IMG/VR virus record: IMGVR_UViG_3300045303_000377
Coordinates: 1 to 40,833 of that record
Source of the DNA: a virus
Strand: one strand, 5' to 3'
Length of the DNA: 40,833 nucleotides
Part shown: positions 4,064 through 39,380 of the stretch, in pieces
How the letters are laid out: the number at the start of each line of letters is the position of its first letter
Numbering within the stretch: position 1 is the stretch's first letter
Made by a program: the position numbers and the translations under genes
The notes under the pieces: generated by a model
Database searches by the model: none
What the model was told of the DNA's origin: nothing
The model's input: only the letters and a program-made list of their open reading frames with translations

Positions 4064-4602
4064 GCAGCGGCAGGGATCGAATCGACTGGGCGGCGGCGCT
4101 CGCCTTCTACGTGGCGCTCGACCCGCCGCGCTCCTTCGCGAGGGTTGCGCGCAAGTTCGGAGTTTCAGACACCGCCGTCCGCAAGCACGCCCACCGGGAG
4201 AACTGGCGGGCCAAGGCCGACGCGATCGAGGCCAAGGCGGAGGCCAAGGCGCTCGAGTCCGGGCTCCGCAGCCGCGAGCAGAGGATCGCCGCGGTGCTGA
4301 AGACGATCGACGTCGGCCTCGACCAGGTCGGCGGCGATCTCGACAAGGGAGCGCAGCGTCTCGGCACCGACCGCTTCGCCGAGTGGGTCAAGCTCGCCGA
4401 GCTGCTCTCCGGGGAGGCGACCGACCGCGTCTCGGTGGCCGAGCTGCAGGAGGCGATGCGGATGATCGTCTCGCTGGCCGACCGCACGCTCGTCGAGGTA
4501 GTCGAGGCGACGCTCCCGGTCGGTAAGCGCACAGCCGTCCTGCAGGGCTTCCGCCTTCGCTACGTGCCGGCGTTGAACGAGGCGCTGGGGGTCGAGACGT
4601 GA
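4060..4602 (+). CDS. Helix-turn-helix protein, possible small terminase
   Basis: A 180-residue protein with a GTG start overlapping the initiator stop. The segment SFARVARKFGVSDTAVRKHA followed by RENWRAKADAIEAKAEAKAL is a helix-turn-helix followed by a helix rich in Ala, Glu and Lys, a layout seen in phage small terminase subunits and related DNA-binding proteins. The rest is helical. Its position two kilobases ahead of the large terminase fits a packaging recognition role, but it could equally be a transcriptional regulator. The C-terminal LQGFRLRYVPALNEALG may be an oligomerisation or partner-binding segment. Confidence 0.6.
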   Translation: MSSGRDRIDWAAALAFYVALDPPRSFARVARKFGVSDTAVRKHAHRENWRAKADAIEAKAEAKALESGLRSREQRIAAVLKTIDVGLDQVGGDLDKGAQRLGTDRFAEWVKLAELLSGEATDRVSVAELQEAMRMIVSLADRTLVEVVEATLPVGKRTAVLQGFRLRYVPALNEALGVET

Positions 4603-5339
4603 CCCACTGCGGACGCTGCGGCCAGGCGATCGAGGGCGCCCATGCCTGCATGCTGCCAGCGGTCTGGGTGCTGACCGTTCCGGGTCGCTATGGCCACATC
4701 GCCGACGTCGAAGCGCTCTGCCGGGCGGTGCTCGAGGAGGGGCTCGTGCGTTCCTCGATGACGCTCGGCTCGACCGACTACGACGAGGCGCTCGCCTTCC
4801 TGCTCGGCGAGGTCGTCGTCCTGGAGGCCGTCTACGATCCGCGCCGTGACGATCCCGCCCAGCGTGAGCCGCTCGGCTTCAGGCCCTGGCTCTACGGCCG
4901 CCTCCGCTTCCGGCTCATCGACTACTGGCGCAGCTGGTACGGCCGGCGAGGGCAGCACCGGGTCCATGACGGAGATGTTGACGGTGATCGACTGGAGCTC
5001 GCTGCCGGCGTCGGAGTGGGAGACGCTGCAGACGATTGGCTGCCTGCTTTCGGAGGGCGACAGCCGGCGGGAGATCGCCCAGAAGCTGGGCCTCTCCGAG
5101 GGCGAGGTCAGCTCGCGGATCGAGACGCTCAAGGAAGCGCTGCTCGAACGAACGGGCGAGCTCCAGGGCGAGCTGCGGGCCCGGGCAACGGAGCTCCGCC
5201 GCCGTGGCTCGACTGTCTGAGCTGCGGCTGGCGTACCTACCTGAAGCCGCCGAACGGCAACCCGGGCTGGCGTCTGCCGACGGCCTGCTCGGCCTGCGGA
5301 GTGCGTTTCGAGCGTGACGGCGCGGAGCGGGCGGCGTGA
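4599..5339 (+). CDS. Sigma-70-like protein, N-terminal part, with out-of-frame middle
   Basis: One open frame of 246 codons, but only its ends look like protein. Residues 1-20 carry a C..CG..C-type zinc-binding pattern (HCGRCGQAIEGAHACM). Residues about 60-118 (DEALAFLLGEVVVLEAVYDP, FRPWLYGRLRFRLIDYWRSW) resemble sigma-70 region 2. After about 4950 the coding signal moves to the +1 frame, where a region-4-like helix-turn-helix is encoded. The last 40 residues return to this frame as a clean zinc ribbon (CLSCGW and CSACGV). Either programmed frameshifting, overlapping genes or sequence errors must explain this. Confidence 0.55.
   Translation: MTHCGRCGQAIEGAHACMLPAVWVLTVPGRYGHIADVEALCRAVLEEGLVRSSMTLGSTDYDEALAFLLGEVVVLEAVYDPRRDDPAQREPLGFRPWLYGRLRFRLIDYWRSWYGRRGQHRVHDGDVDGDRLELAAGVGVGDAADDWLPAFGGRQPAGDRPEAGPLRGRGQLADRDAQGSAARTNGRAPGRAAGPGNGAPPPWLDCLSCGWRTYLKPPNGNPGWRLPTACSACGVRFERDGAERAA
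4966..5220 (+). CDS. Sigma region 4-like helix-turn-helix segment (+1 frame)
   Basis: An ATG at 4966 opens an 84-residue product in the frame that carries the real coding signal here: WETLQTIGCLLSEGDSRREI continues into AQKLGLSEGEVSSRIETLKE, a typical sigma region 4/LuxR-like helix-turn-helix with GC-rich third positions. It may be a separate small protein or, more likely, the second half of the sigma-like protein joined to the upstream frame by a +1 shift near 4945-4965. A GAGGG at 4949-4953 could act as a weak ribosome site for the independent-gene option. Confidence 0.55.
   Translation: MTEMLTVIDWSSLPASEWETLQTIGCLLSEGDSRREIAQKLGLSEGEVSSRIETLKEALLERTGELQGELRARATELRRRGSTV
5205..5339 (+). 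other. Zinc ribbon segment without its own start codon
   Basis: In the frame of the 4599 gene, CLSCGWRTYLKPP...TACSACGVRFERD forms a CxxC-x(21 or so)-CxxC zinc ribbon. No ATG, GTG or TTG lies in frame between about 5000 and 5205, so it can be made only by reading through the overprinted region or by a -1 shift from the helix-turn-helix frame shortly before its stop at 5218. Zinc ribbons are common at the ends of transcription factors, which fits the sigma-like neighbour. Confidence 0.45.
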
Positions 5340-5345
5340 GCGGGG

Positions 5346-5354
5346 CGATACTCG
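5346..5354 (+). promoter_or_regulatory. CGATACTCG start-site motif, copy 1
   Basis: Lies 3 nt before the ATG at 5358 and 6 nt after the stop of the sigma-like/zinc ribbon frame. No Shine-Dalgarno separates it from the start. First copy in the window; interpretation is given in the findings. Confidence 0.7.
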
Positions 5355-7887: not shown

Positions 7888-7896
7888 CGATACTCG
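7888..7896 (+). promoter_or_regulatory. CGATACTCG start-site motif, copy 2
   Basis: Begins 2 nt after the terminase stop and ends 3 nt before the portal GTG at 7900. No purine-rich ribosome site is present in the 14-nt gap. Confidence 0.75.
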
Positions 7897-7899
7897 GCC

Positions 7900-9384
7900 G
7901 TGCGACTGCTCCCGAGCTTCCTCCGCCGCGAGAACGCCGCCCTGCCGGGTGGCGCCGGCGACCCGCCCAAGGGTGAGGCGGGCTCCGATCGCGAGGACTG
8001 GCTCGGCGACCTCCAGGGCGGCGGGCCCGACGTCAACCCTGAGCTGAGCGGCTCGGCTAAGTTCGTCGTCTACGACGAGATGCGCAAGACCGACGCCTCG
8101 ATCAAGGCGCTGCTGCTCTTCCTGAAGCTGCCCGTGCGCTCGGCGGCCTGGGGCCTGAACCCGAAGACCGAGGAGCCTGAGGCGCAGGTGATCTGCGACT
8201 TCGTCGACTGGAACCTCGGGGTCGAAAGCGGCGAAGGGCAGATGGACCTCAGCTGGGACGAGTCGCTCCAGCAGGGCATGCAGATGCTCGACTTCGGCCC
8301 GATGTTCGAGGAGCTCGTCTGGGGCGACTCGGTCAGCTGGACCGACGGCGACGGCGACCAGCATCTGGTGCGGCCGCTCGTTCGCCTCGCGCCGCGGATG
8401 CCGCGCACGATCGACAAGGTCGTGATCCGCAAGGGCCAGCTGCTCGAGCTGCGCCAGGACATCCCGAACACTCAGCCGATTCCCGGCGAGAAGCTTTCCT
8501 ACATGGTCTTCGAGCGGGAAGGCGGACGCTGGGACGGCGTCTCGCTGCTGCGCCCGACCTGGGGGCCGTGGCGACTGAAGAAGGCGCTGATGATCGCGGC
8601 CGGGATCGGCTGGGATCGCTTCGCCGCCGGCTTGCCGGTCGTCTGGCACCCCGACACGCCGGCGGGCGAGCAGAAGGCGCGCCAGATCGGCCGCGACGTC
8701 CGCCACCACGAGCGTGGCTACGTCCACTTCCCGATCCCCGAAGGCTTGAAGAAGGAAGAGGCCCAGTGGGAACTCGAGATCAAGAATGGCGCGACGACGC
8801 TCGCCGACCCGGTCCCGCTTCTGAACTGGTACTCGGGCCAGATCCTCGAAGCGGGCCTCGCCCACTTCTCCAACCTCGGCAACAGCGCGCACGGCGCGCG
8901 AGCGGTCGCCGAGACGCAGATCGACCCCTTCTTCCTGGCCGTGCAGACGCTCGCCAACTATGTCCGCCGCGAGCGCTCTCGACAGGTGATCAAGCGGATC
9001 GTCGAGGTGAACTTCGGGGCCGAGGCCGCCGATCGCTGGACGCCGACGCTGACCGTTTCGAAGATCCAGGCGCGCTCGATCTCGACGATCTCCCAGGCGA
9101 TCTACGACCTCAATCAGGCCGGACTCACCTTCACCGATCGCGAGGCCCAGGACGACATCCGCGAGCTGCTCGGCCTGCCGAAGCTCCCCGAGGACGATCT
9201 CCTCGCTCAGGGGATCGACCCCGCGCAGCTGCAGCAGCTGCTCGCCTCAGCCGGGCTCGACCCGGAGACCCTCGCCGCGATCCTCGCCAAGCTGCCGCCC
9301 GAGGTCGGGGTCGCGCGCAACAAGGCCCCGGGCTACCAGGGCAACGGAGCCGGGCTCGAAGGCGCCGGCCTGCAGGGAGGTTAG
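7900..9384 (+). CDS. Portal protein, DUF935/Mu gp29-like
   Basis: A 494-residue protein. The start is the GTG that follows the repeated motif; the open frame extends far upstream, but that part overlaps terminase. Typical portal features are VVYDEMRKTDASIKALLLFL, PVRSAAWGLNP, the central GMQMLDFGPMFEELVW, LVRLAPRMPRTI, and the DUF935-type LLNWYSGQILEAGLAHFSNLG followed by GARAVAETQIDPFF. The C-terminal 60 residues (PKLPEDDLLAQGIDPAQLQQ) are helical and then Gly-rich. It forms the dodecameric DNA channel of the head. Confidence 0.88.
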   Translation: MRLLPSFLRRENAALPGGAGDPPKGEAGSDREDWLGDLQGGGPDVNPELSGSAKFVVYDEMRKTDASIKALLLFLKLPVRSAAWGLNPKTEEPEAQVICDFVDWNLGVESGEGQMDLSWDESLQQGMQMLDFGPMFEELVWGDSVSWTDGDGDQHLVRPLVRLAPRMPRTIDKVVIRKGQLLELRQDIPNTQPIPGEKLSYMVFEREGGRWDGVSLLRPTWGPWRLKKALMIAAGIGWDRFAAGLPVVWHPDTPAGEQKARQIGRDVRHHERGYVHFPIPEGLKKEEAQWELEIKNGATTLADPVPLLNWYSGQILEAGLAHFSNLGNSAHGARAVAETQIDPFFLAVQTLANYVRRERSRQVIKRIVEVNFGAEAADRWTPTLTVSKIQARSISTISQAIYDLNQAGLTFTDREAQDDIRELLGLPKLPEDDLLAQGIDPAQLQQLLASAGLDPETLAAILAKLPPEVGVARNKAPGYQGNGAGLEGAGLQGG

Positions 9385-9391
9385 GCCCCGC

Positions 9392-9400
9392 CGATACTCG
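9392..9400 (+). promoter_or_regulatory. CGATACTCG start-site motif, copy 3
   Basis: Lies in the 19-nt gap between the portal stop and the GTG at 9404, again exactly 3 nt before the start. Confidence 0.75.
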
Positions 9401-12456: not shown

Positions 12457-14196
12457 ATGGCGACCGTCTCGCGTACATACGTCTTCGCCGCTAACGCCGA
12501 GGGCTTCACAGACCAGGGCAACTCGGCAAGTCTGACGGCGGCGTGGGTCGCCGGAGACGGCAACCCGCCCGGCTCGCTGGAATGGCTCGCTGTCGCCGCT
12601 GCGACGGAGTTCGCAAGGGACACGCTCGAAGCGTGGACGGCGAAGTTTCCCGGCATCCCGGCCGGCGCGATCATCACGCAGGTCCAAGTCACCGCCTGGG
12701 ACGAGCTCTGCTGGACGGGCGGCGGCCCGACGCGCCGCGTCCGCTTCCGCATCGTTGACAGCACGAACACGGTCGTCCACTCGGCGGGCGACCTATTCGA
12801 CACGACCTCAAACGCGACGACGAGCTCCGGCGGCACTCCCGTTGCTATGGGCGCTGGGACGGCTCGAGCAGTAGACGCCTCATTCCAGCCTGCGGCGACA
12901 CAAATCAAGTTCGAGATCGTCGTCGATTCGACCGGCACGATCGACCTCGAGCAGGACAACATCGCGGTCACGGTCACGTACACGACTGCGGCTGCAGGCG
13001 CCGGCCCGGCACCGAACCCGATCCTGCAGATGCTCAACCAGCGCGGCCGGCTACGCGCGCTGGCGCTGCAACTGATCCGACCGAGGCCTTCGCTGGCGCC
13101 AGTGGGCACGCCCGTCTCGAGTAGCGTCGACGCGCCGTTCGAGGCGTTGCAGGCCATCGCGCAGAGCGGCAGCGACCCGCTCGATGCGGCCCAGAGCCTT
13201 GCGACGAGCGCAAGCGACCCGCTCGAGGCGACGCAGGGGCTCTCGAACGCGAGCTCCGACCCGCTCGAGGAGAACCAGGGCGTCGCCGCGGCCGGCGTCG
13301 ATCCGCTGGAGGCGCAGCAGGGAATCGCAGCGCCGCTGAGCGATCCCTTCGAGGCGGTCCAGGGCGGGATCGTCTCGACGTCGCTCGTGCCCTTCGAGGC
13401 TCTGCAGGGCATCGTCCAGTCGCTCGTCGACGCGATCGAGGCGGCGGGCGGGGTCGCGTCGAGCGGGGTCGATCCGTTCGAGGCGGTGAGGGCAATCGCG
13501 TCCTCGCTGGTCGACCCGTTCGAGTCGAGCACCGGCGTCGCGAGCAGCGGGAGCGATGCGTACGAGTCGGCCCAGGGACTCGCTACGACCATCCTCGATG
13601 CCTTCGAGTCGCTCGCCGGCGTCAAGACCAGCAGCGGGGATCCTCTCGAAGCGCTGGCCGGAGTCGCGTCGGGGCTGAGCGATCCCTACGAGGCCGATGG
13701 TGCAGCGCTCGCGGCCGTCAGCAGCAGCTCCTCGGCGCCGTTCGAATCCTTGAAGGCGATCGCAGCGAGCCTTGGCCTTCCGCTCGAATCCTTGGCCGGC
13801 GTCACGGTCACGAGCGCAGACGCCTTCGAGTCCCTCGCTGGGGTCGCCGCCGTGGCGCTCGTCCCGCTCGAGAGCGCCGGCGGCGTGCGGCAGACAATCG
13901 CCGTGCCCTTCGAGGCACCAGCCGGAGTCGCCTCGAGCGCGGCCGCCCAGCTCGAGAGCCTGGCCGCCGTCCTCCGCGTCTCGGGCGCGCCCTTCGAGGC
14001 GACCTCGATCTTCGTCTACCTTCGTGTCGGCGAGCTGCTCGTCGAGCTGGCCGTGCTGCGTCCCGAGGGCCGCTTCGGCCGCGTTGCTCCCGGCGCTCCG
14101 ATACTCGCCCTGAGGCCTATCGCGCGGCTTCGTAGCACCGATGCGCCGGCGGATCTCGGCGCGGTTGAGCCGGAGGCGAGGATCACGAAGACCTGA
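12457..14196 (+). CDS. Repeat-rich putative fibre protein
   Basis: A 579-residue protein. Residues 1-180 look like a beta-sandwich (YVFAANAEGFTDQGNSASLT, RRVRFRIVDSTNTVVHS, IKFEIVVDSTGTIDLEQDN). From residue 224 to about 516 there are about 21 tandem copies of a 14-residue unit with consensus SDPFEALQGIAxSG; the Glu in the (P/A)(F/L/Y)E(A/S) core is almost invariant (one copy has Asp). The C-terminal 65 residues form a separate domain (VYLRVGELLVELAVLRP). Repeats of this style occur in phage structural proteins; I infer a long rod or solenoid in the virion. Function is not proven. Confidence 0.7.
   Translation: MATVSRTYVFAANAEGFTDQGNSASLTAAWVAGDGNPPGSLEWLAVAAATEFARDTLEAWTAKFPGIPAGAIITQVQVTAWDELCWTGGGPTRRVRFRIVDSTNTVVHSAGDLFDTTSNATTSSGGTPVAMGAGTARAVDASFQPAATQIKFEIVVDSTGTIDLEQDNIAVTVTYTTAAAGAGPAPNPILQMLNQRGRLRALALQLIRPRPSLAPVGTPVSSSVDAPFEALQAIAQSGSDPLDAAQSLATSASDPLEATQGLSNASSDPLEENQGVAAAGVDPLEAQQGIAAPLSDPFEAVQGGIVSTSLVPFEALQGIVQSLVDAIEAAGGVASSGVDPFEAVRAIASSLVDPFESSTGVASSGSDAYESAQGLATTILDAFESLAGVKTSSGDPLEALAGVASGLSDPYEADGAALAAVSSSSSAPFESLKAIAASLGLPLESLAGVTVTSADAFESLAGVAAVALVPLESAGGVRQTIAVPFEAPAGVASSAAAQLESLAAVLRVSGAPFEATSIFVYLRVGELLVELAVLRPEGRFGRVAPGAPILALRPIARLRSTDAPADLGAVEPEARITKT
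13126..14004 (+). repeat. About 21 tandem 42-bp/14-residue repeats
   Basis: The unit is degenerate at DNA level but regular in protein length: most copies are exactly 14 residues, with two longer units. Variable positions alternate D/V/L at position 2, and the preceding Ser-Gly or Ser-Ser pair marks the boundary. The high divergence between copies indicates an old repeat kept by protein structure rather than a recent slippage product. Confidence 0.8.
14099..14107 (+). promoter_or_regulatory. CGATACTCG motif, copy 4 (inside a gene)
   Basis: Lies inside the last 100 bases of the repeat-protein gene. A CTG, in frame with that gene, stands at the +3 position where other copies have ATG or GTG. 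It is 89 nt before the ATG at 14196, so it could drive that gene with a short leader, or be a chance or decayed copy. Confidence 0.45.
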
Positions 14197-16313: not shown

Positions 16314-16333
16314 ACCGGCGCCGCGATACTCAA
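16306..16333 (-). promoter_or_regulatory. Predicted promoter of the minus-strand cargo cassette
   Basis: On the minus strand TTGAGT (16328-16333) and TATTAC (16306-16311) are separated by 16 bp and lie 20 bp from the ATG at 16285. This is the most sigma-70-like sequence in an otherwise GC-rich region. The -35 box overlaps the CGATACTCA motif of the divergent late gene, so the two promoters would compete. Confidence 0.45.
16324..16332 (+). promoter_or_regulatory. CGATACTCA start-site motif, copy 5 (variant)
   Basis: Differs from the other copies only in its last base. It stands 3 nt before the GTG at 16336 in the divergent intergenic space, where no upstream + strand gene exists, so coupling from an upstream gene cannot supply translation here. 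Confidence 0.7.
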
Positions 16334-16803: not shown

Positions 16804-16812
16804 CGATACTCG
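16804..16812 (+). promoter_or_regulatory. CGATACTCG start-site motif, copy 6
   Basis: In the 15-nt gap after the gpG-like gene; 3 nt (GCG) separate it from the GTG at 16816. Confidence 0.75.
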
Positions 16813-17334: not shown

Positions 17335-17341
17335 CCCCCGC

Positions 17342-17350
17342 CGATACTCG
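17342..17350 (+). promoter_or_regulatory. CGATACTCG start-site motif, copy 7
   Basis: In the 19-nt gap before the protease gene. The sequence GTGTG follows; the GTG at 17354 has the usual 3-nt spacing and keeps the frame of the gene. Confidence 0.75.
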
Positions 17351-17353
17351 CGT

Positions 17354-18568
17354 GTGCCCGGTGAGCTTGCGACCATCGACCTGCCCGGCGTCGAGATCAT
17401 GTCGGTCGGCGGCCCGGTGCACGCGATCGGCTCGCCGCCTGAGGGCGACCACTGGACGCAAGACCACCTGCGCCAGATGGCCGACGCGGCGAAGGAGCTC
17501 GAAGGCGAGCTGCGCCCGCCGAACAAGATCGGTCACTCCTCAAAGCAGAAGCTGCTCGCGAACTCGGGCCTGACCGACGGCGAGATGCCGGCGGCCGGCT
17601 GGCTCGAGAACGTCCGCCTCTCCGAGGACGGCAACAAGCTGCTCGCCGACGTGAAGAAGGTGCCGGCCAAGCTCGGCAGCCTGATCCAGGCGGGCGCCTG
17701 GCGCACACGCTCGGCCGAGCTCTCGCGGGTCACCAGCCAGAAGACCGGCAAGAGCTACGACTGGGTCGTTACCGGCCTCGCCTGGCTCGGCGGCAAGCGG
17801 CCCTCGATCAGCACCCTCGACGACGTCGTGCGCTTGTACGAGTCCGACGACGACCGCGTCGTGCGGCGCTGCCTCGCCCAGGAAGAGAACGAGGACTCCT
17901 ACTCGAAGGAGGCCGTCGACGCTCTGCGCGAGAACGCCTTCGACGACGCGGCCGGAAAGATCGCACGCGCTGCCGATACTCGCGCGATGGCCGAGATCAC
18001 CCTCACCGAGGAGAAGGCGCGGGAACTCGCGACGAGCCTCGGTGTCGAGGGCGAGATCGACGCCGACAAGCTGATCGAAGGCGCCAAGGCGCGCGTCGAG
18101 GACAAGAGCCTCAGCGCCGAGCAGCAGGCCGAGCTGGCCAAGAGCCTCGGAATCGAGGGCGAGGTCACGCCGGAGAAGCTGCTCGAGGCCGCGAAGGCCA
18201 AGCCCGAGCCGAAGCGCGAGAACTCGGCCGACGACGACGAGCTGAAGCGCAAGCTCGAAGAGGTCGAGAAGGAGGCCAAGCAGGCGACCGAGGATCTCCG
18301 CCTCGAGCGCCGGCGGAACTTCGTCGAGGACGAGCTGATCGCCACCGCCAAGATCGCGCCGGGCGACCGGAAGAAGTGGGAGGACCGCTACGACAAGGAC
18401 GCCGAGCTGGCGCGCTCGTTCGCAGAAGACCTTCAGCCCGACCCCGTCCTGCTCAGGGAGCTCGGCTCCGACGAAGAGGGCACCGAGAGCGAGGTCGAGG
18501 AGCGGCGCAAGCTCGAAGAGGCCGACTCGTCCGCCCGACTCGGGATCCCGAAAGAGGAGCTGATCTGA
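17354..18568 (+). CDS. Capsid maturation protease with C-terminal scaffold, Mu I-like
   Basis: A 404-residue protein. Residues 1-165 match the Mu-like I protease family: NKIGHSSKQ, DGEMPAAGWLENVRLSEDG, KLLADVKKVPAKLGSLIQAG, AWRTRSAELSRV and TGLAWLGGKRPSISTL. The His in GHS and the Ser in RSAEL are candidate active-site residues. From residue 212 the protein is a highly charged helical scaffold (EEKARELATSLGVEGEIDAD, DDELKRKLEEVEKEAKQATE). In Mu the scaffold Z is made from an internal start in I; the same arrangement is predicted here. Confidence 0.85.
   Translation: MPGELATIDLPGVEIMSVGGPVHAIGSPPEGDHWTQDHLRQMADAAKELEGELRPPNKIGHSSKQKLLANSGLTDGEMPAAGWLENVRLSEDGNKLLADVKKVPAKLGSLIQAGAWRTRSAELSRVTSQKTGKSYDWVVTGLAWLGGKRPSISTLDDVVRLYESDDDRVVRRCLAQEENEDSYSKEAVDALRENAFDDAAGKIARAADTRAMAEITLTEEKARELATSLGVEGEIDADKLIEGAKARVEDKSLSAEQQAELAKSLGIEGEVTPEKLLEAAKAKPEPKRENSADDDELKRKLEEVEKEAKQATEDLRLERRRNFVEDELIATAKIAPGDRKKWEDRYDKDAELARSFAEDLQPDPVLLRELGSDEEGTESEVEERRKLEEADSSARLGIPKEELI
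17974..17982 (+). promoter_or_regulatory. CGATACTCG motif, copy 8 (before internal scaffold start)
   Basis: Lies within the protease gene, 4 nt before an in-frame ATG at 17987. It is the only copy with a 4-nt gap. In the protease frame it is read as part of ADTRAM. Confidence 0.7.
17987..18568 (+). CDS. Nested scaffold protein (internal start in the protease gene)
   Basis: An in-frame ATG preceded by the repeated start-site motif would give a 193-residue product, MAEITLTEEKAREL onward, that is exactly the charged scaffold part without the protease. Two related half-repeats (ATSLGVEGEIDADKLIEGAK and AKSLGIEGEVTPEKLLEAAK) precede a long coiled coil. Phage Mu Z and lambda Nu3 are precedents for nested scaffolds. 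The separate product is inferred. Confidence 0.65.
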   Translation: MAEITLTEEKARELATSLGVEGEIDADKLIEGAKARVEDKSLSAEQQAELAKSLGIEGEVTPEKLLEAAKAKPEPKRENSADDDELKRKLEEVEKEAKQATEDLRLERRRNFVEDELIATAKIAPGDRKKWEDRYDKDAELARSFAEDLQPDPVLLRELGSDEEGTESEVEERRKLEEADSSARLGIPKEELI

Positions 18569-18569
18569 C

Positions 18570-18968
18570 GTGGCCGTCACCGGCGGATACGTCCCCCCGT
18601 ACGCAGCAGGCGCGCCGCCGATCACGCTCGCGGTCAGCGCCGCTGTCCTCGCAGGCCAGGTCGTCGAGGTCACCGGCGACAACACCGTCGGCCCCGCCGG
18701 CGCGGCCTCGCGCAAGGCGATCGGCGTCGCAGGCCAGAGCGGCTCGGCCGTCGGCGACCTGATCACCGTCTACCTCTTCGGTGACCTCCACACAATGACC
18801 GCCTCCGGCGCCATCACCGCTGGCGACCAGGTCGGTACCGCCGCCGCCGGCGCAGTCTCGACCATCGCCGCCGGAACCACCACGGATCTCACCCGCTCGA
18901 TCGTCGGGGTCGCGCTCGCCGGGATCGCCAACGGCCAGACTGGCCGAATCATGGTGGGACCCTTCTAG
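18570..18968 (+). CDS. Head decoration/capsid cement protein (DUF2190-like)
   Basis: A 132-residue Gly/Ala/Thr/Val-rich protein with a GTG start, one base after the scaffold stop and a GAGGAG ribosome site about 10 nt upstream. The pattern (TLAVSAAVLAGQVVEVTGDN, KAIGVAGQSGSAVGDLITVY, GDQVGTAAAGAVSTIAAGTT, IVGVALAGIANGQTGRIMVG) is that of DUF2190 or related capsid decoration beta-barrels, which trimerise on the capsid surface. The major capsid gene follows without a gap. Confidence 0.85.
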   Translation: MAVTGGYVPPYAAGAPPITLAVSAAVLAGQVVEVTGDNTVGPAGAASRKAIGVAGQSGSAVGDLITVYLFGDLHTMTASGAITAGDQVGTAAAGAVSTIAAGTTTDLTRSIVGVALAGIANGQTGRIMVGPF

Positions 18969-19913
18969 ATGCCGACCTATCCACTTCAGGGCGGTTCCGG
19001 TTCGCAGCTGACCGTCGAGGCGCTGCTCAAGCAGCCTCGCCGGATTTCGCGCGATCTCGTCAACCTCGTCTCCAAGCGCCTGGTCGCCGACCGACTCTTC
19101 GTGCGGGGCTCGGCCGAGCAGGTCGCCGGCGGCGCGATGCAGTACCAGCTCGCCGAGTCGATCTACCTCGACACCGATCCGACCGAGGAGATCGCAGCCG
19201 GCGCCGACTGGCCGCGCTCGACCTGGACCGAGGCGATCCTCTCCGAGGTCGTCCACCAGTACGGGCTCGAGGTGCTGATCACGAACCTGATGGTCAGGCG
19301 CCACCAGATGGATCAGGTGACGCGCGCCGAGCGCAAGCTGGCCAACAACCTCGTCCGCTTCATCGACACGAAGGCCTTCGCGCTGCTCGAGAACCTCGCC
19401 AAGGGCCAGAACACGCAGGCCTCCGCAGCGGCCTGGTCGATCGCCGGCACGGACATCATCGCCGAGGTCGTCAAGGCCCAGGAGTTCATCGAGACGGCCG
19501 ACAACGGCTACAGCGGCTTCGAGGGCGCGACGATGGTGCTCAACACGAGCAAGCGCGACGATCTCCTGAACAACACCGTCCTGCGCGCCGCACTGCCGCG
19601 CGAGGATCGCACCGGCCAGATCCAGACCGGGATGATGGCGCCCTTCCTGGGCCTGAAGGAGATCCTCTTCAGCTCGCGGGTCACCGCGACGAAGGCGATC
19701 ATCATCGACACGGGCGTCGCCGGCACGATCGCCGACGAGCCGCCGGATCCCTCCGAGGGCTTCGTCGGCTACGACCCGGGCCCGGGCTTCTCGCCGATCT
19801 ACGTCAAGGTCTACGAGCACCCGGAGTCGAAGGGGAAGGTCGTCGCGGCCGGCCGCTGGCCCGCCATGGCGCTGACCGACCCGAAGGCCATCACCGTCAT
19901 CACGGGGATCTAG
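18969..19913 (+). CDS. Major capsid protein
   Basis: A 314-residue protein, ATG directly after the decoration stop. The HK97-fold pattern is visible: long N-terminal helical and extended region (LVNLVSKRLVADRLFVRGSA), P-domain helix ERKLANNLVRFIDTKAFALL, and the A-domain strands near VVKAQEFIETADNGYSGFEG and MVLNTSKRDDLLNN. The C-terminal VKVYEHPESKGKVVAAGRWP and AITVITGI are typical of capsid proteins of this Mu/actinophage group. Position between decoration and adaptor genes supports the call. Confidence 0.88.
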   Translation: MPTYPLQGGSGSQLTVEALLKQPRRISRDLVNLVSKRLVADRLFVRGSAEQVAGGAMQYQLAESIYLDTDPTEEIAAGADWPRSTWTEAILSEVVHQYGLEVLITNLMVRRHQMDQVTRAERKLANNLVRFIDTKAFALLENLAKGQNTQASAAAWSIAGTDIIAEVVKAQEFIETADNGYSGFEGATMVLNTSKRDDLLNNTVLRAALPREDRTGQIQTGMMAPFLGLKEILFSSRVTATKAIIIDTGVAGTIADEPPDPSEGFVGYDPGPGFSPIYVKVYEHPESKGKVVAAGRWPAMALTDPKAITVITGI

Positions 19914-20660: not shown

Positions 20661-20802
20661 GCCGCGTGTATCGGGTTGTAACCGCGCCCTCACGCTCGGC
20701 GAGCGGGCGAACGCCCCGATAAGTCATCGCGCGGCGCCAGACGCGGAGAACGGCTCCTAGCGCGTCGGCCGGAAACCTGCCTGCCGCCGCCGATACTCGC
20801 GC
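20661..20802 (+). other. 142-nt intergenic region with hairpin
   Basis: One of the longest non-coding stretches in the structural region. It contains GGTT-GT-AACC at 20674-20683, a hairpin at 20685-20709 (CGCCC and GCTC pairing with GAGC and GGGCG around a GGC loop), and the CGATACTCG motif at its end. No U-rich tract follows the hairpin. It may hold a processing site or GC-rich terminator between the head and tail transcripts; nothing else was recognised. Confidence 0.4.
20791..20799 (+). promoter_or_regulatory. CGATACTCG start-site motif, copy 9
   Basis: Ends 3 nt before the GTG at 20803. Preceded by 130 nt of non-coding sequence, so this copy is free of coding constraints and is the best one for testing promoter function. 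Confidence 0.75.
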
Positions 20803-28376: not shown

Positions 28377-28385
28377 CGATACTCG
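28377..28385 (+). promoter_or_regulatory. CGATACTCG start-site motif, copy 10
   Basis: Spans the 19-nt gap after the tail hub stop; 3 nt separate it from a GTG at 28389, which opens an 8-codon leader instead of the main gene. Confidence 0.75.
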
Positions 28386-28388
28386 CCC

Positions 28389-28415
28389 GTGGCGACGAGC
28401 AGGGCTGCGAGATGA
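28389..28415 (+). CDS. Predicted 8-codon leader minicistron
   Basis: The GTG that follows the motif at the standard spacing reads eight codons (MATSRAAR) and stops in the ATGA that contains the start of the fibre gene. Translation of the leader would feed ribosomes to the next start. There is no other good ribosome site for 28412 apart from a weak purine run. Alternatively this is a decayed original start of the fibre gene. Confidence 0.45.
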   Translation: MATSRAAR

Positions 28416-36388: not shown

Positions 36389-38568
36389 ACCCGCTCAGGA
36401 TCCACGCCGAGCACTACAGGAGCTTCGAGCGCCTCGACCTCGACCTCCCGATCGGCTGCGTGGCCGTGCTCGGCGAGAACGGCGCGGGCAAGTCGAGCAT
36501 CGTCAATGCGATCGACCTCGCGCTCTTCGGGCCACCGTCGCGCAACCTCGGTGACTACCTCAGCGAGGACGCCGGCGATAGCGACGACCTCGTCCTCTGC
36601 CTCGAGTTCGAGCACCGCGGCGAGCTCTACCGCGTGCGGCGCGGCTACTCGGCGCGGGGGAGGGGCAAGACGACGCTGGACTTCGAGCTGGCGTCAGCGC
36701 CGCTCGATGACCCGCTGGCCGAGCAGATCGCGCCGGGCTGGTCGCCGCTCACCCGCGAGACAGCGGCCGCGACCCAGGCGCTGATCGAGCAGACGCTCGG
36801 CCTCTCTCGCGAGACTTTCCGCGCCTCAGCCTTCCTGGCCCAGGGCGACGGTGCCGCGTTCACCGAGGCCCAGCCGCGCGAGCGCAAGGCGATTCTCGCC
36901 GAGGTGCTGGGGCTCGAGGTCTGGGATCGGTTGCTCGAGCGTGCCAAGGCCGACCGCTCCCGCATCGAGGCCGCGAGCTCCGAGCTGAAGACGCGGATCG
37001 GAACCGCCGGCGAGGATCTCGAGCGCCAGCCGCTGCTCCAGCGCCAGAAGATCGACCTGGACAAGGCCGCCGACGAGCTTGCCGGGCAGATCGCGAGCCT
37101 CGAGGCCCAGCGCGTCGATGCGGCCAAGGCGCTGACGACCGCGCGGGAGGCGGCTGCCGAGTTGAAGGGCGCGCGCGAGGTGCTCGCCGCCCGCGAGGCA
37201 GATCTGCAACGGGTCGAGAAGCGCATCGCGCAGATCGCCGAGGCCGACCACAACTCCGGCGCTCTTGTAGGCGAGCGGGACCTCGCGCAGCGACTGGCCG
37301 AGCGGGTGCCGGGTCTGGAAGAGGAGCTCGCCAAGGCGACCGCCGCAATCGAGAAGCGCCGCGAGCTTGAGCGGATGGAGGAGACGCGCGCTCGTCTCAC
37401 GCGAGAGATCGGCTCGCTGGGGACGAAGTCGGCCGAGCTGTCGGCGAAGGCCGTGGAGTTGAAGCGCGCCGAGGACGTGCAGCACTGCGACAGGTGCGGA
37501 CAGACGCTCGAGAGCGAAGCCCGCGAACGCGCCCTCGACTCCTACATGGCCGAGATCGACGACATTGGCGGGCGGGTCACGAAGCTGCGATCGCAGCTCG
37601 ATCAGCTCCCGGAGCTCGACGACCTTCGCGGCGCGATCGAGGACGTCCGCGGCAAGCCCGAGATTGAGCAGGAGCTCGCGCGCGGCCGCGCGGCCGCCAC
37701 CCGCGTCACCGAGATCACCGCCCGCCTCGAGCACCTCGACGAGCTCAAGGCCGAGCGCGAGTTGCACGAGCGCTCCCTACCCGAGTTCCGTACCGCGGCC
37801 GCCGAGCAGCGCACGAAGGTCGAAGGCCTCAAGGCATCCCACCCGCAGATCGGGATCCTCGAAGCCGACCTCGAGGGCGCGGAGCGCCGACTCGAAGAGA
37901 CCCGCCGCGAGCTGGCCGAGTCGCAGTCGAAGGTCGGGCGCGTCGACGGCGAGCTCGAGCGGATTGCGGGTCTGGCCGAGCGCGTCGCCGGCGAGAAGCG
38001 CCAGCTGGACGAGCTGCAAGCAGAGCTTGACCTCGTGCTCCTGGCCGAGCGCGCCTACGGGCGCGACGGGATCCCGACGCTGATCGTCGAGAACGCGGCC
38101 ATCCCGCAGATCGAGGTCGAGGCGAACCGCATCCTGGCCGAGCTCGGCACGAGCTTCACGGTCGAGCTGCGCACCCAGCGCGAGCTGAAGGACGGCTCCG
38201 GCGTCCGCGAGGCGCTCGACATCGTCGTCTACGGCCCCGCCGGCGAGAGGCCCTACGAGACCTTCTCGGGCGGCGAGCGGACGCGGTTGAACCTGAGCCT
38301 TAGGATCGCTCTTGCCCGGCTGCTCGCGCATCGCCGCGGCGCCGAGGTGCGGATGCTCGTGATCGACGAGCCGGAGTTCCTCGACGAGCCGGGTGTGGCG
38401 CGGCTCGCCGAGGTTCTCCGCGGCCTCTCGGCCGACTTCGAGCGCGTCTTCCTGATCTCGCACCAGCCCGCGCTGCGGGAGGCCTTCGACGAGGTGCTCA
38501 CGGTCGTCAAGGACGGCGACCGCTCGCGCGTCGAGGAAGCAGACCTACGAGAGGAGATTCCAGCATGA
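36385..38568 (+). CDS. sbcC: SbcC/Rad50-like ATPase
   Basis: A 727-residue protein, GTG start overlapping the SbcD stop. Walker A GENGAGKSS (Lys36, Ser37), zinc hook CDRC at Cys368/Cys371 between two long coiled coils, ABC signature SGGER at 628-632 and Walker B MLVIDEPE with Asp661-Glu662. The coiled-coil arms of about 200 residues each are shorter than in bacterial SbcC, as in T4 gp46. The pair forms the Mre11-Rad50 clamp that opens and trims DNA ends. Confidence 0.92.
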   Translation: MNPLRIHAEHYRSFERLDLDLPIGCVAVLGENGAGKSSIVNAIDLALFGPPSRNLGDYLSEDAGDSDDLVLCLEFEHRGELYRVRRGYSARGRGKTTLDFELASAPLDDPLAEQIAPGWSPLTRETAAATQALIEQTLGLSRETFRASAFLAQGDGAAFTEAQPRERKAILAEVLGLEVWDRLLERAKADRSRIEAASSELKTRIGTAGEDLERQPLLQRQKIDLDKAADELAGQIASLEAQRVDAAKALTTAREAAAELKGAREVLAAREADLQRVEKRIAQIAEADHNSGALVGERDLAQRLAERVPGLEEELAKATAAIEKRRELERMEETRARLTREIGSLGTKSAELSAKAVELKRAEDVQHCDRCGQTLESEARERALDSYMAEIDDIGGRVTKLRSQLDQLPELDDLRGAIEDVRGKPEIEQELARGRAAATRVTEITARLEHLDELKAERELHERSLPEFRTAAAEQRTKVEGLKASHPQIGILEADLEGAERRLEETRRELAESQSKVGRVDGELERIAGLAERVAGEKRQLDELQAELDLVLLAERAYGRDGIPTLIVENAAIPQIEVEANRILAELGTSFTVELRTQRELKDGSGVREALDIVVYGPAGERPYETFSGGERTRLNLSLRIALARLLAHRRGAEVRMLVIDEPEFLDEPGVARLAEVLRGLSADFERVFLISHQPALREAFDEVLTVVKDGDRSRVEEADLREEIPA

Positions 38569-39380
38569 CCCCGGTTCAGATCCCCGAGGGCTTCGACCTC
38601 GAAGCGCTTGTGCTCGCCGGCGGCAGCCACAAGTCGTTCGACGACGGCTGCTGCGTGACCGAGCTGGCGAGCTACATGGCCGGCGAGCCGTTCAGCGACC
38701 ACCCGAAGTGCGTCTCGCCGGTGATCGCGACCTTCGGGCGCTCCTGGAACGATTCGCTCGACGACGACGAGCGCCAGATGCTCAAGCCCTACGCGGTCAA
38801 GATGATCGACACCGCGACCGGGAAGCGCGACGAGGAGATCCGGGCCTGGATGTGCACCGACTGGCTCGCGCGCGAGTGCGCGCCAGGGTTCCTGCGCCTG
38901 GCCGGTCTGACCGAGCAGGCGCAGCTGCTGGAGAAGCTCGCGCCGCTCACCTCGTCGTCGCTGGCCAAGGCGGCCCAGCCGACACTTGACCGGGCGCGCA
39001 CGGATGCGGCCGCCGCGCGGGACGCCGCGTGGGACGCCGCGTGGGACGCCGCGCGGGACGCCGCGTGGGACGCCGCGTGGGACGCCGCGTGGGCCGCCGC
39101 GCGGGACGCCGCGTGGGACGCCGCGTGGGACGCCGCGTGGGACGCCGCGCGGGACGCCGCGTGGGACGCCGCGCGGGACGCCGCGTGGGACGCCGCGTGG
39201 GACGCCGCGTGGGCCGCCGCGTGGGACGCCGCGCGGGACGCCGCGTGGGACGCCGATCCCTCCCGTCGGCGCTCGGCCGCTGACGCGGCCCTCGCGCCGA
39301 CGGTCAAGCAGCTGCAGGCGAGCGCGCTCCTTCTCCTCGACCGGATGTGCGAGGTCGGCAGGGAGGACAAGGCGGCGTGA
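38565..39380 (+). CDS. Phage protein with C-terminal AAW-type tetrapeptide repeat helix
   Basis: A 271-residue protein, ATG overlapping the SbcC stop. Residues 1-125 form a conserved-looking domain (CCVTELASYMAGEPFSDHPK, SWNDSLDDDERQMLKPYAVK) common to actinophage proteins of unknown role. Residues 149-228 are 20 tandem tetrads, mostly DAAW, with four DAAR, two AAAR/AAAW variants and similar changes. These would make a long helix with Trp/Arg on one face and Asp on the other. A short C-terminal helix (LQASALLLLDRM) follows. Function unknown. Confidence 0.75.
   Translation: MTPVQIPEGFDLEALVLAGGSHKSFDDGCCVTELASYMAGEPFSDHPKCVSPVIATFGRSWNDSLDDDERQMLKPYAVKMIDTATGKRDEEIRAWMCTDWLARECAPGFLRLAGLTEQAQLLEKLAPLTSSSLAKAAQPTLDRARTDAAAARDAAWDAAWDAARDAAWDAAWDAAWAAARDAAWDAAWDAAWDAARDAAWDAARDAAWDAAWDAAWAAAWDAARDAAWDADPSRRRSAADAALAPTVKQLQASALLLLDRMCEVGREDKAA
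39009..39248 (+). repeat. 20-copy 12-bp tandem repeat (GACGCCGCGTGG type)
   Basis: Twenty units of exactly 12 bp, nearly identical, differing mainly by T/C (Trp/Arg codon) and A/C (Asp/Ala codon) changes. Copies are much more alike than the old 42-bp repeats at 13.1-14.0 kb, which points to recent expansion by slippage or unequal recombination. The tract is free of stops in several reading frames on both strands. Confidence 0.9.

Follow-up and report, generated by a model that had tools for sequence, protein, structure and literature searches.

How does a virus that encodes its head protease and its scaffold in a single gene produce the two proteins in different amounts? Head assembly requires more scaffold than protease, and known phages achieve this with internal translation starts, whereas herpesviruses use an internal promoter. 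We examined this question in an uncultured phage represented by the IMG/VR record IMGVR_UViG_3300045303_000377, the whole 40,833-nucleotide stretch of which was analyzed and is referred to here as the window. Comparisons with related and distant phages suggest that an internal leaderless promoter produces the scaffold separately from the protease, an explanation that we consider, as a whole, quite likely.

The protease-scaffold gene and its internal motif

The locus comprises the following features.

17354..18568, + strand: head maturation protease with C-terminal scaffold; ORF of 404 aa with a GTG start
17987..18568, + strand: proposed nested scaffold ORF of 193 aa with an ATG start (MAEITLTEEKAREL...); in-frame start kept in relatives
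18570..18968, + strand: cement/decoration-like protein, directly after the scaffold (Pfam Phage_cement_2, E=2e-4; PHROG 673)
18969..19913, + strand: major capsid protein (PHROG 1650, E=2e-57; Phage_capsid_4, E=1e-13)

Residues 6-179 of the full-length product match the head maturation protease family PHROG 3894 (E=9e-33), and residues 33-358 match PHROG 976 (E=1e-18). ATG 17987 lies in frame with GTG 17354, 211 codons downstream, and thus corresponds to residue 212 of 404 and opens the last 193 residues. In the AlphaFold prediction of the protease (mean pLDDT 58) the last protease strand spans residues 134-142, an unreliable linker follows over residues 144-252, and helices come thereafter; a PDB search with this model (pLDDT 58) returned nothing usable. 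Because the PHROG 3894 match ends at residue 179 and the model places strands up to 142, a linker up to 252 and then helices, residue 212 would fall between the protease and the helical scaffold, in agreement with the border position proposed in a preliminary description of this DNA.

Several repeats and one conflicting annotation were observed in passing. The N terminus of the nested scaffold carries a direct duplication of a 30-residue unit (18001-18090 and 18109-18198, 71%), apparently missing in most relatives. Elsewhere in the window, ORF 38565-39380 contains an array of ~12-base repeats at 38936-39307, and ORF 12457-14196 contains imperfect 84-base repeat units at 13114-13764. The PHROG 673 label of the product encoded at 18570-18968 reads head scaffolding protein, in conflict with Pfam Phage_cement_2; gene order favors a cement protein, and the PHROG label may therefore be wrong.

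The sequence CGATACTCG occurs in the window as nine exact copies on the plus strand and none on the minus strand, compared with ~0.26 expected from trinucleotide content. Its shorter part GATACT is present in 10 copies, all on the plus strand and all belonging to the start motif. The sites are listed below.

5346..5354, + strand: motif copy; ATG at +12 (5358)
7888..7896, + strand: motif copy, portal gene; GTG at +12 (7900)
9392..9400, + strand: motif copy; GTG at +12 (9404)
14099..14107, + strand: motif copy; no start codon at +12, next ATG at 14141, 42 bases from the motif start
16324..16332, + strand: motif variant CGATACTCA, neck gene; GTG at +12 (16336)
16804..16812, + strand: motif copy; GTG at +12 (16816)
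17340..17351, + strand: motif GCCGATACTCGC before the protease's own start; GTG 12 bases after the motif C at 17342
17972..17983, + strand: internal motif GCCGATACTCGC, proposed internal leaderless promoter; core CGATACTCG at 17974-17982
20791..20799, + strand: motif copy; GTG at +12 (20803)
28377..28385, + strand: motif copy; GTG at +12 (28389) opens an 8-codon ORF

At eight of the 10 CGATACTC sites, the distance from the first motif base to an ATG or GTG is exactly 12 bases, the usual arrangement in the window being one in which three bases separate CGATACTCG from the start codon. The two exceptions are the copy at 14099, without a start codon, and the internal protease site, whose spacing had been described as 12 and is corrected here to 13. 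At 28377-28415 the predicted leaderless 8-codon ORF ends in a TGA that overlaps ATG 28412 (ATGA), and the two may be translationally coupled.

Inside the protease gene the motif is present once, at 17974-17982 ahead of the in-frame ATG 17987, which confirms what had been noticed earlier. The 12-mer to which it belongs (17972-17983) is identical to the copy ahead of the protease start (17340-17351). No start-like motif lies between 17974 and the capsid gene; the major capsid gene has no motif of its own, the nearest one upstream being that at 17974, and the next motif downstream of 17974 is at 20791.

A single copy within a gene could arise by accident, if the peptide Ala-Asp-Thr-Arg, kept for reasons of protein function or by chance, happened to spell the motif. 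The codon choices speak against such an accident, since the internal copy uses GAT (6% of the Asp codons of the gene) and ACT (6% of its Thr codons), and the motif was recreated in 10 of 4000 synonymous re-codings of the window protein. The relatives described below keep the motif while the residues change and so refute this explanation, to which we assign a negligible probability.

We propose instead that CGATACTCG acts as the recognition element, similar to an extended -10 element, of a phage-specific promoter, and that transcription starts at the start codon or within one or two bases of it, giving leaderless mRNAs. With the copy at 17974 the protease gene would contain one of these promoters internally, with RNA beginning at ~17986-17987, and translation from ATG 17987 would yield a scaffold of 193 aa that has the same sequence as the C-terminal part of the protease-scaffold protein. 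Because no further motif occurs before 20791, the internal transcript probably continues into the cement and major capsid genes and serves these as well. Scaffold and capsid would then be made independently of the protease and in larger amount; the protease, portal and neck genes have upstream motifs of their own, an organization that would set a low-copy protease apart from high-copy scaffold and capsid. The separate parts of this proposal differ in strength. Judged from sequence, the nested start at 17987 is almost certainly used, the motif is very likely a promoter whose RNA starts at the codon, and it is likely that the motif raises scaffold over protease.

The border start in related and distant phages

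Ten further phages, recovered as viral contigs, encode the same protease (L003, L004, L005, L006=L007, L008, L009, L013, L014, L060=L091 and L132), and the family is one of uncultured soil phages. L132 was found via its capsid protein alone and, because the protease was not used to find it, serves as a held-out test. A collection-wide scan with GCCGATACTCGNNNGTG gave mainly single chance matches and added one true relative, L060/L091; profile searches of genome contigs with the protease and capsid alignments found no prophage.

The start motif differs among these phages. It reads GATACT in the window, L006 and L060, GATAGT in L003, GAATCT or GAACCT in L004, L005, L008, L009 and L132, and GACATT in L013 and L014. 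In all 11 phages, that is the window and its 10 relatives, the phage's own variant is found at the protease/scaffold border before an in-frame ATG or GTG, at an offset of +13 in nine phages, +15 in L014 and +16 in L013. These internal starts were placed on the DNA and on alignments of the nested part alone, because full-length protein alignments misalign the scaffold border. Among the ten phages measured, the nested part spans 161-198 aa and the whole gene 404-532 aa, the latter differing because of variable inserts between the protease and scaffold domains.

The residues at the internal start vary (ADTRAM, PDSRPV, AESRHV, AESTPM, ADIRRRM), and a start-capable codon is kept throughout. The codons that spell the motif are rare choices in most of the protease genes, and synonymous shuffling recreated the motif together with an in-frame ATG or GTG in 0-105 of 4000 trials in nine phages and in 251 of 4000 in L013. 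These relatives are not independent of one another; shared DNA is nevertheless unlikely to explain the conserved sites, because four motif variants are represented and protein identity is 35-60%. The internal spacing of 13 bases fits a nested site: for the variants that end in TAG, a spacing of 12 would put a stop in the protease frame (CGA TAG TAG or CGA ATC TAG), whereas a spacing of 13 avoids it (C GAT AGT AGG or C GAA TCT AGG), and the internal sites of these variants use 13.

Two further observations concern the phages with GAATCT or GAACCT. In L004, L005, L008, L009 and L132, GAATCT is found at the protease, scaffold and post-capsid genes and GAACCT mostly at portal and other genes, two grades that may reflect promoter strength. 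In L004 the bases at +12 after one motif (8573-8590) read ATC GAC CTT TTT GCC, where L009 and L132 have the GTG that starts the homologous gene; either this is a leaderless gene with an ATC start or the start codon was lost.

More distant members of the same protease family occur in cultured Arthrobacter, Gordonia, Corynebacterium and Mycobacterium phages at ~32-37% identity. Eight of these phages were compared (L152-L159), five of them related Arthrobacter phages. Like the window, Abba, Beans, Schnabeltier, prophiGD05-3, Adelaide and the others have a homologous gene, the gene order protease-cement-capsid and an in-frame start at the border. This GTG or ATG stands at the homologous position, just before the first scaffold helix, in eight of eight, and in each case a Shine-Dalgarno match of 5-8 bases accompanies it; Schnabeltier GTG 320, for example, is preceded by GAAGGAGG and Adelaide ATG 285 by AAGGAGG. 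The nested products would measure 161-190 aa. By comparison, Shine-Dalgarno matches of at least five bases were found at six of the 39 other internal ATG, GTG or TTG codons listed (Fisher ~1e-5). The CGANNNT motif is absent from the internal start of these distant phages, whereas the window's clade shows the reverse, with the motif and without the Shine-Dalgarno sequence. A border start driven by a Shine-Dalgarno sequence in the distant phages indicates that the nested scaffold is older than the motif and that the signal was exchanged in the window's clade. The nested start proposed in the preliminary description is thereby supported from two sides, by the divergent motif of each of the 11 phages with its in-frame ATG or GTG and by the Shine-Dalgarno starts of the eight.

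These comparisons also bear on whether the motif might be a promoter for the cement and capsid genes only, with the in-frame ATG incidental and the scaffold made solely as a fusion to the protease. Within the window, the cement and capsid genes do follow the internal motif with no other copy in between, and the relatives share this order. A promoter of that kind would need neither an in-frame start nor a Shine-Dalgarno counterpart, and both are found: an in-frame ATG or GTG follows 13-16 bases on in 11 of 11 phages despite varying neighboring residues, and at that position the distant phages combine an in-frame start with a Shine-Dalgarno sequence. We therefore regard a promoter confined to cement and capsid as unlikely and favor one that also yields the nested scaffold.

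A proposed leaderless promoter and its candidate reader

Across 66 motif sites in nine phages, an ATG or GTG lies at +12 in 40 and at +13 in 16 (56 of 66 together); every other offset from 9 to 39 accounts for at most three of the 66 sites, and no site is on the minus strand. The motif also precedes tRNA-Met genes, by 12 bases in L003 (motif 9040, tRNA 9052) and L005 (8128, 8140) and by 11 bases in L132 (motif 3269, tRNA 3280). As a tRNA needs a promoter and has no translation start, these sites argue for a promoter rather than a ribosome signal. In L004 (8330) and L009 (9010) a sequence resembling a tRNA follows the motif; neither ARAGORN nor Rfam called these two as tRNAs, and they were left uncounted.

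The motif occupies the position of a Shine-Dalgarno sequence and keeps a tight spacing to start codons, properties that would suit an unusual ribosome-binding or translation-start signal directing internal initiation on a long transcript, as in Mu or lambda; the start-associated sequences of mycobacteriophages were first interpreted in this way (PMC3203893). Besides the tRNA genes, which are preceded by the same motif at the same spacing, the variation of the motif among related phages is unexpected for a signal addressed to the host ribosome, while promoters co-evolving with a phage factor would be expected to diverge in sequence at constant positions. The motif has no anti-Shine-Dalgarno complementarity, and several other genes of the window do have ordinary Shine-Dalgarno sites; before the internal starts of the 11 phages no Shine-Dalgarno sequence at usable spacing was found, the motif filling that position. 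A translation signal is on these grounds improbable.

The form of the motif points to a promoter. Over 72 sites the invariant letters are CGA...T, GC is favored immediately upstream, and the consensus is GCCGANNNT[CA]G, in which a -10-like element, GANNNT, lies at a fixed short distance from the start codon. The motif agrees with a -10 element at A(-11) and T(-7), and established promoter geometry with T at -7 would put the canonical transcription start at the A of ATG 17987. In the GACATT group, where the usual spacing is 14, the same geometry would give a leader of one or two bases. In the 72 sites, columns farther upstream than -2, counted from the motif, carried no information, and without a conserved -35 element a standard two-part Sigma70-type promoter is not supported.

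The constant spacing from the motif to start codons and to the 5' ends of tRNAs would likewise result if the motif were an RNA-processing site at which a long transcript is cut just ahead of these features, leaving leaderless ends. Against this, the invariant G-A-N-N-N-T is similar to a -10 element, the phages carry a sigma-like gene, and we know of no precedent for a 9-base, sequence-only RNA cut site of this sort. We judge processing to be very improbable and retain the promoter. The suggestion that the scaffold has a leaderless mRNA of its own thus gains indirect backing from the fixed spacing of 12 or 13 bases, the tRNA spacing, the lack of Shine-Dalgarno sequences and the sigma-like gene.

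The candidate reader of the element is encoded in two overlapping frames.

4599..5339, + strand: sigma region-2-like ORF with a zinc-ribbon-like C-terminal end; candidate motif reader, identified via relatives
4966..5220, + strand: sigma region-4/HTH-like ORF in the +1 frame, overlapping the region-2 ORF (Sigma70_r4_2, E=0.004)

This sigma-like factor lies between the genes for the terminase small and large subunits. The window's own copy at 4599-5339 has no Pfam sigma match, and PHROG and Pfam searches with the window genes gave no direct sigma match; its product shares 38% identity over 107 aa with the L007-phage counterpart, which matches Pfam Sigma70_r2 (E=2.8e-4), as does the L009-phage counterpart (E=6e-5). 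A sigma-domain search of the relatives placed a region-2-like protein beside the terminase genes in six records, two of them, including the L009-phage copy, above the Pfam cut-off, and region-2-like counterparts are present in nine phages, including the window. All nine carry a region-4/HTH-like ORF in the +1 frame of the region-2 stretch; in the window, several other HTH families score equal to or above Sigma70_r4_2 over 4966-5220.

The factor looks split over two overlapping frames (the window; L003 2300-3100; L013 1373-2300; L143-L150), and this may represent a two-subunit sigma or a +1 frameshift. The start codon of the region-4/HTH ORF is ATG, GTG, TTG or CTG, with AC as the next two bases in most phages, and in some the first frame closes with a zinc-ribbon-like segment. 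The phage of L003 encodes in addition a second, complete one-frame sigma of 169 aa (L139 1329-1838; Sigma70_r2, E=2e-9).

Phage-encoded sigma region-2 proteins that read a -10-only element are known from the T4 late promoters (gp55), and in sigma28/FliA-type promoters GCCGA opens the -10 element. The consensus of both differs from the window motif, and the window factor is treated as a sigma-like candidate assigned to neither family. The GCCGA of the motif may thus resemble sigma28 promoters, a lead to which FliA (sigma28) as the best PDB profile match lends weak support (E=0.002 with the complete L003-phage sigma, 0.057 without it). That the motif is read by the phage's own sigma-like factor is in our estimate slightly favored, and the pairing of motif and sigma is not separable from shared descent.

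Comparison with known nested scaffolds

In lambda, the nested in-frame scaffold of C/Nu3 is made from an internal translation start. Lambda C/Nu3, Mu I/Z and PaMx73 all resemble the window in having a nested in-frame scaffold at the protease/scaffold border. In the Mu-like PaMx73, the internal start at Val177 has the Shine-Dalgarno sequence ACGAGGA with a 9-nt spacer (PMC4378225). Mu-like and lambda internal starts use Shine-Dalgarno sequences, whereas the window's clade has a start-associated promoter-like motif instead. Of the Mu and lambda precedent originally invoked for this locus, the nested in-frame start stands, and the internal Shine-Dalgarno sequence on a shared mRNA, found at usable spacing in none of the 11 phages, does not.

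The start-associated sequences of cluster K mycobacteriophages are 13-bp elements, GGGATAGGAGCCC, that contain a Shine-Dalgarno core and lie 3-7 bp from the start of non-structural genes (PMC3203893). They share with the window motif a short, asymmetric form, a position a few bases ahead of start codons and a nearly uniform orientation. The window motif, however, does not match their consensus, GGGATAGGAGCCC, and the cluster K repeat is not described inside a protease gene. Leaderless promoters have been predicted in cluster O (PMC4351075). The literature searched yielded no phage in which a leaderless promoter drives a nested scaffold, which is not proof of absence.

The closest mechanistic precedent, by analogy, would be herpesvirus UL26/UL26.5 rather than lambda or Mu. 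There, as reported by Liu and Roizman (1991, cited in PMC4498786), a promoter and transcription unit for the scaffold lie inside the protease gene. In both systems the C-terminal part of the protease gene encodes the scaffold in the same frame, and the scaffold has an internal promoter, predicted in the case of the window; the scaffold is the more abundant product in the herpesvirus and would be so in the window phage. The herpesvirus promoter serves eukaryotic RNA polymerase II, whereas that of the window would be a phage element with a predicted leaderless mRNA. The proteases are likened here by gene layout, the fold search being uninformative on homology.

Whether control of the nested scaffold passed in this clade from translation, through a Shine-Dalgarno sequence, to transcription, through a leaderless internal promoter read by a phage-encoded split sigma, the UL26/UL26.5 solution in a bacterial virus, seems to us evenly balanced. 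The switch would be traceable in sequence, because sister phages use the translation-start solution at the same codon. The motif predicts N termini that gene callers overlook and offers a start-site map for uncultured phages, and its variants, paired with sigma-like proteins, form a natural series for studies of promoter recognition. The internal-promoter solution known from herpesviruses appears to be represented among phages by the window's clade.
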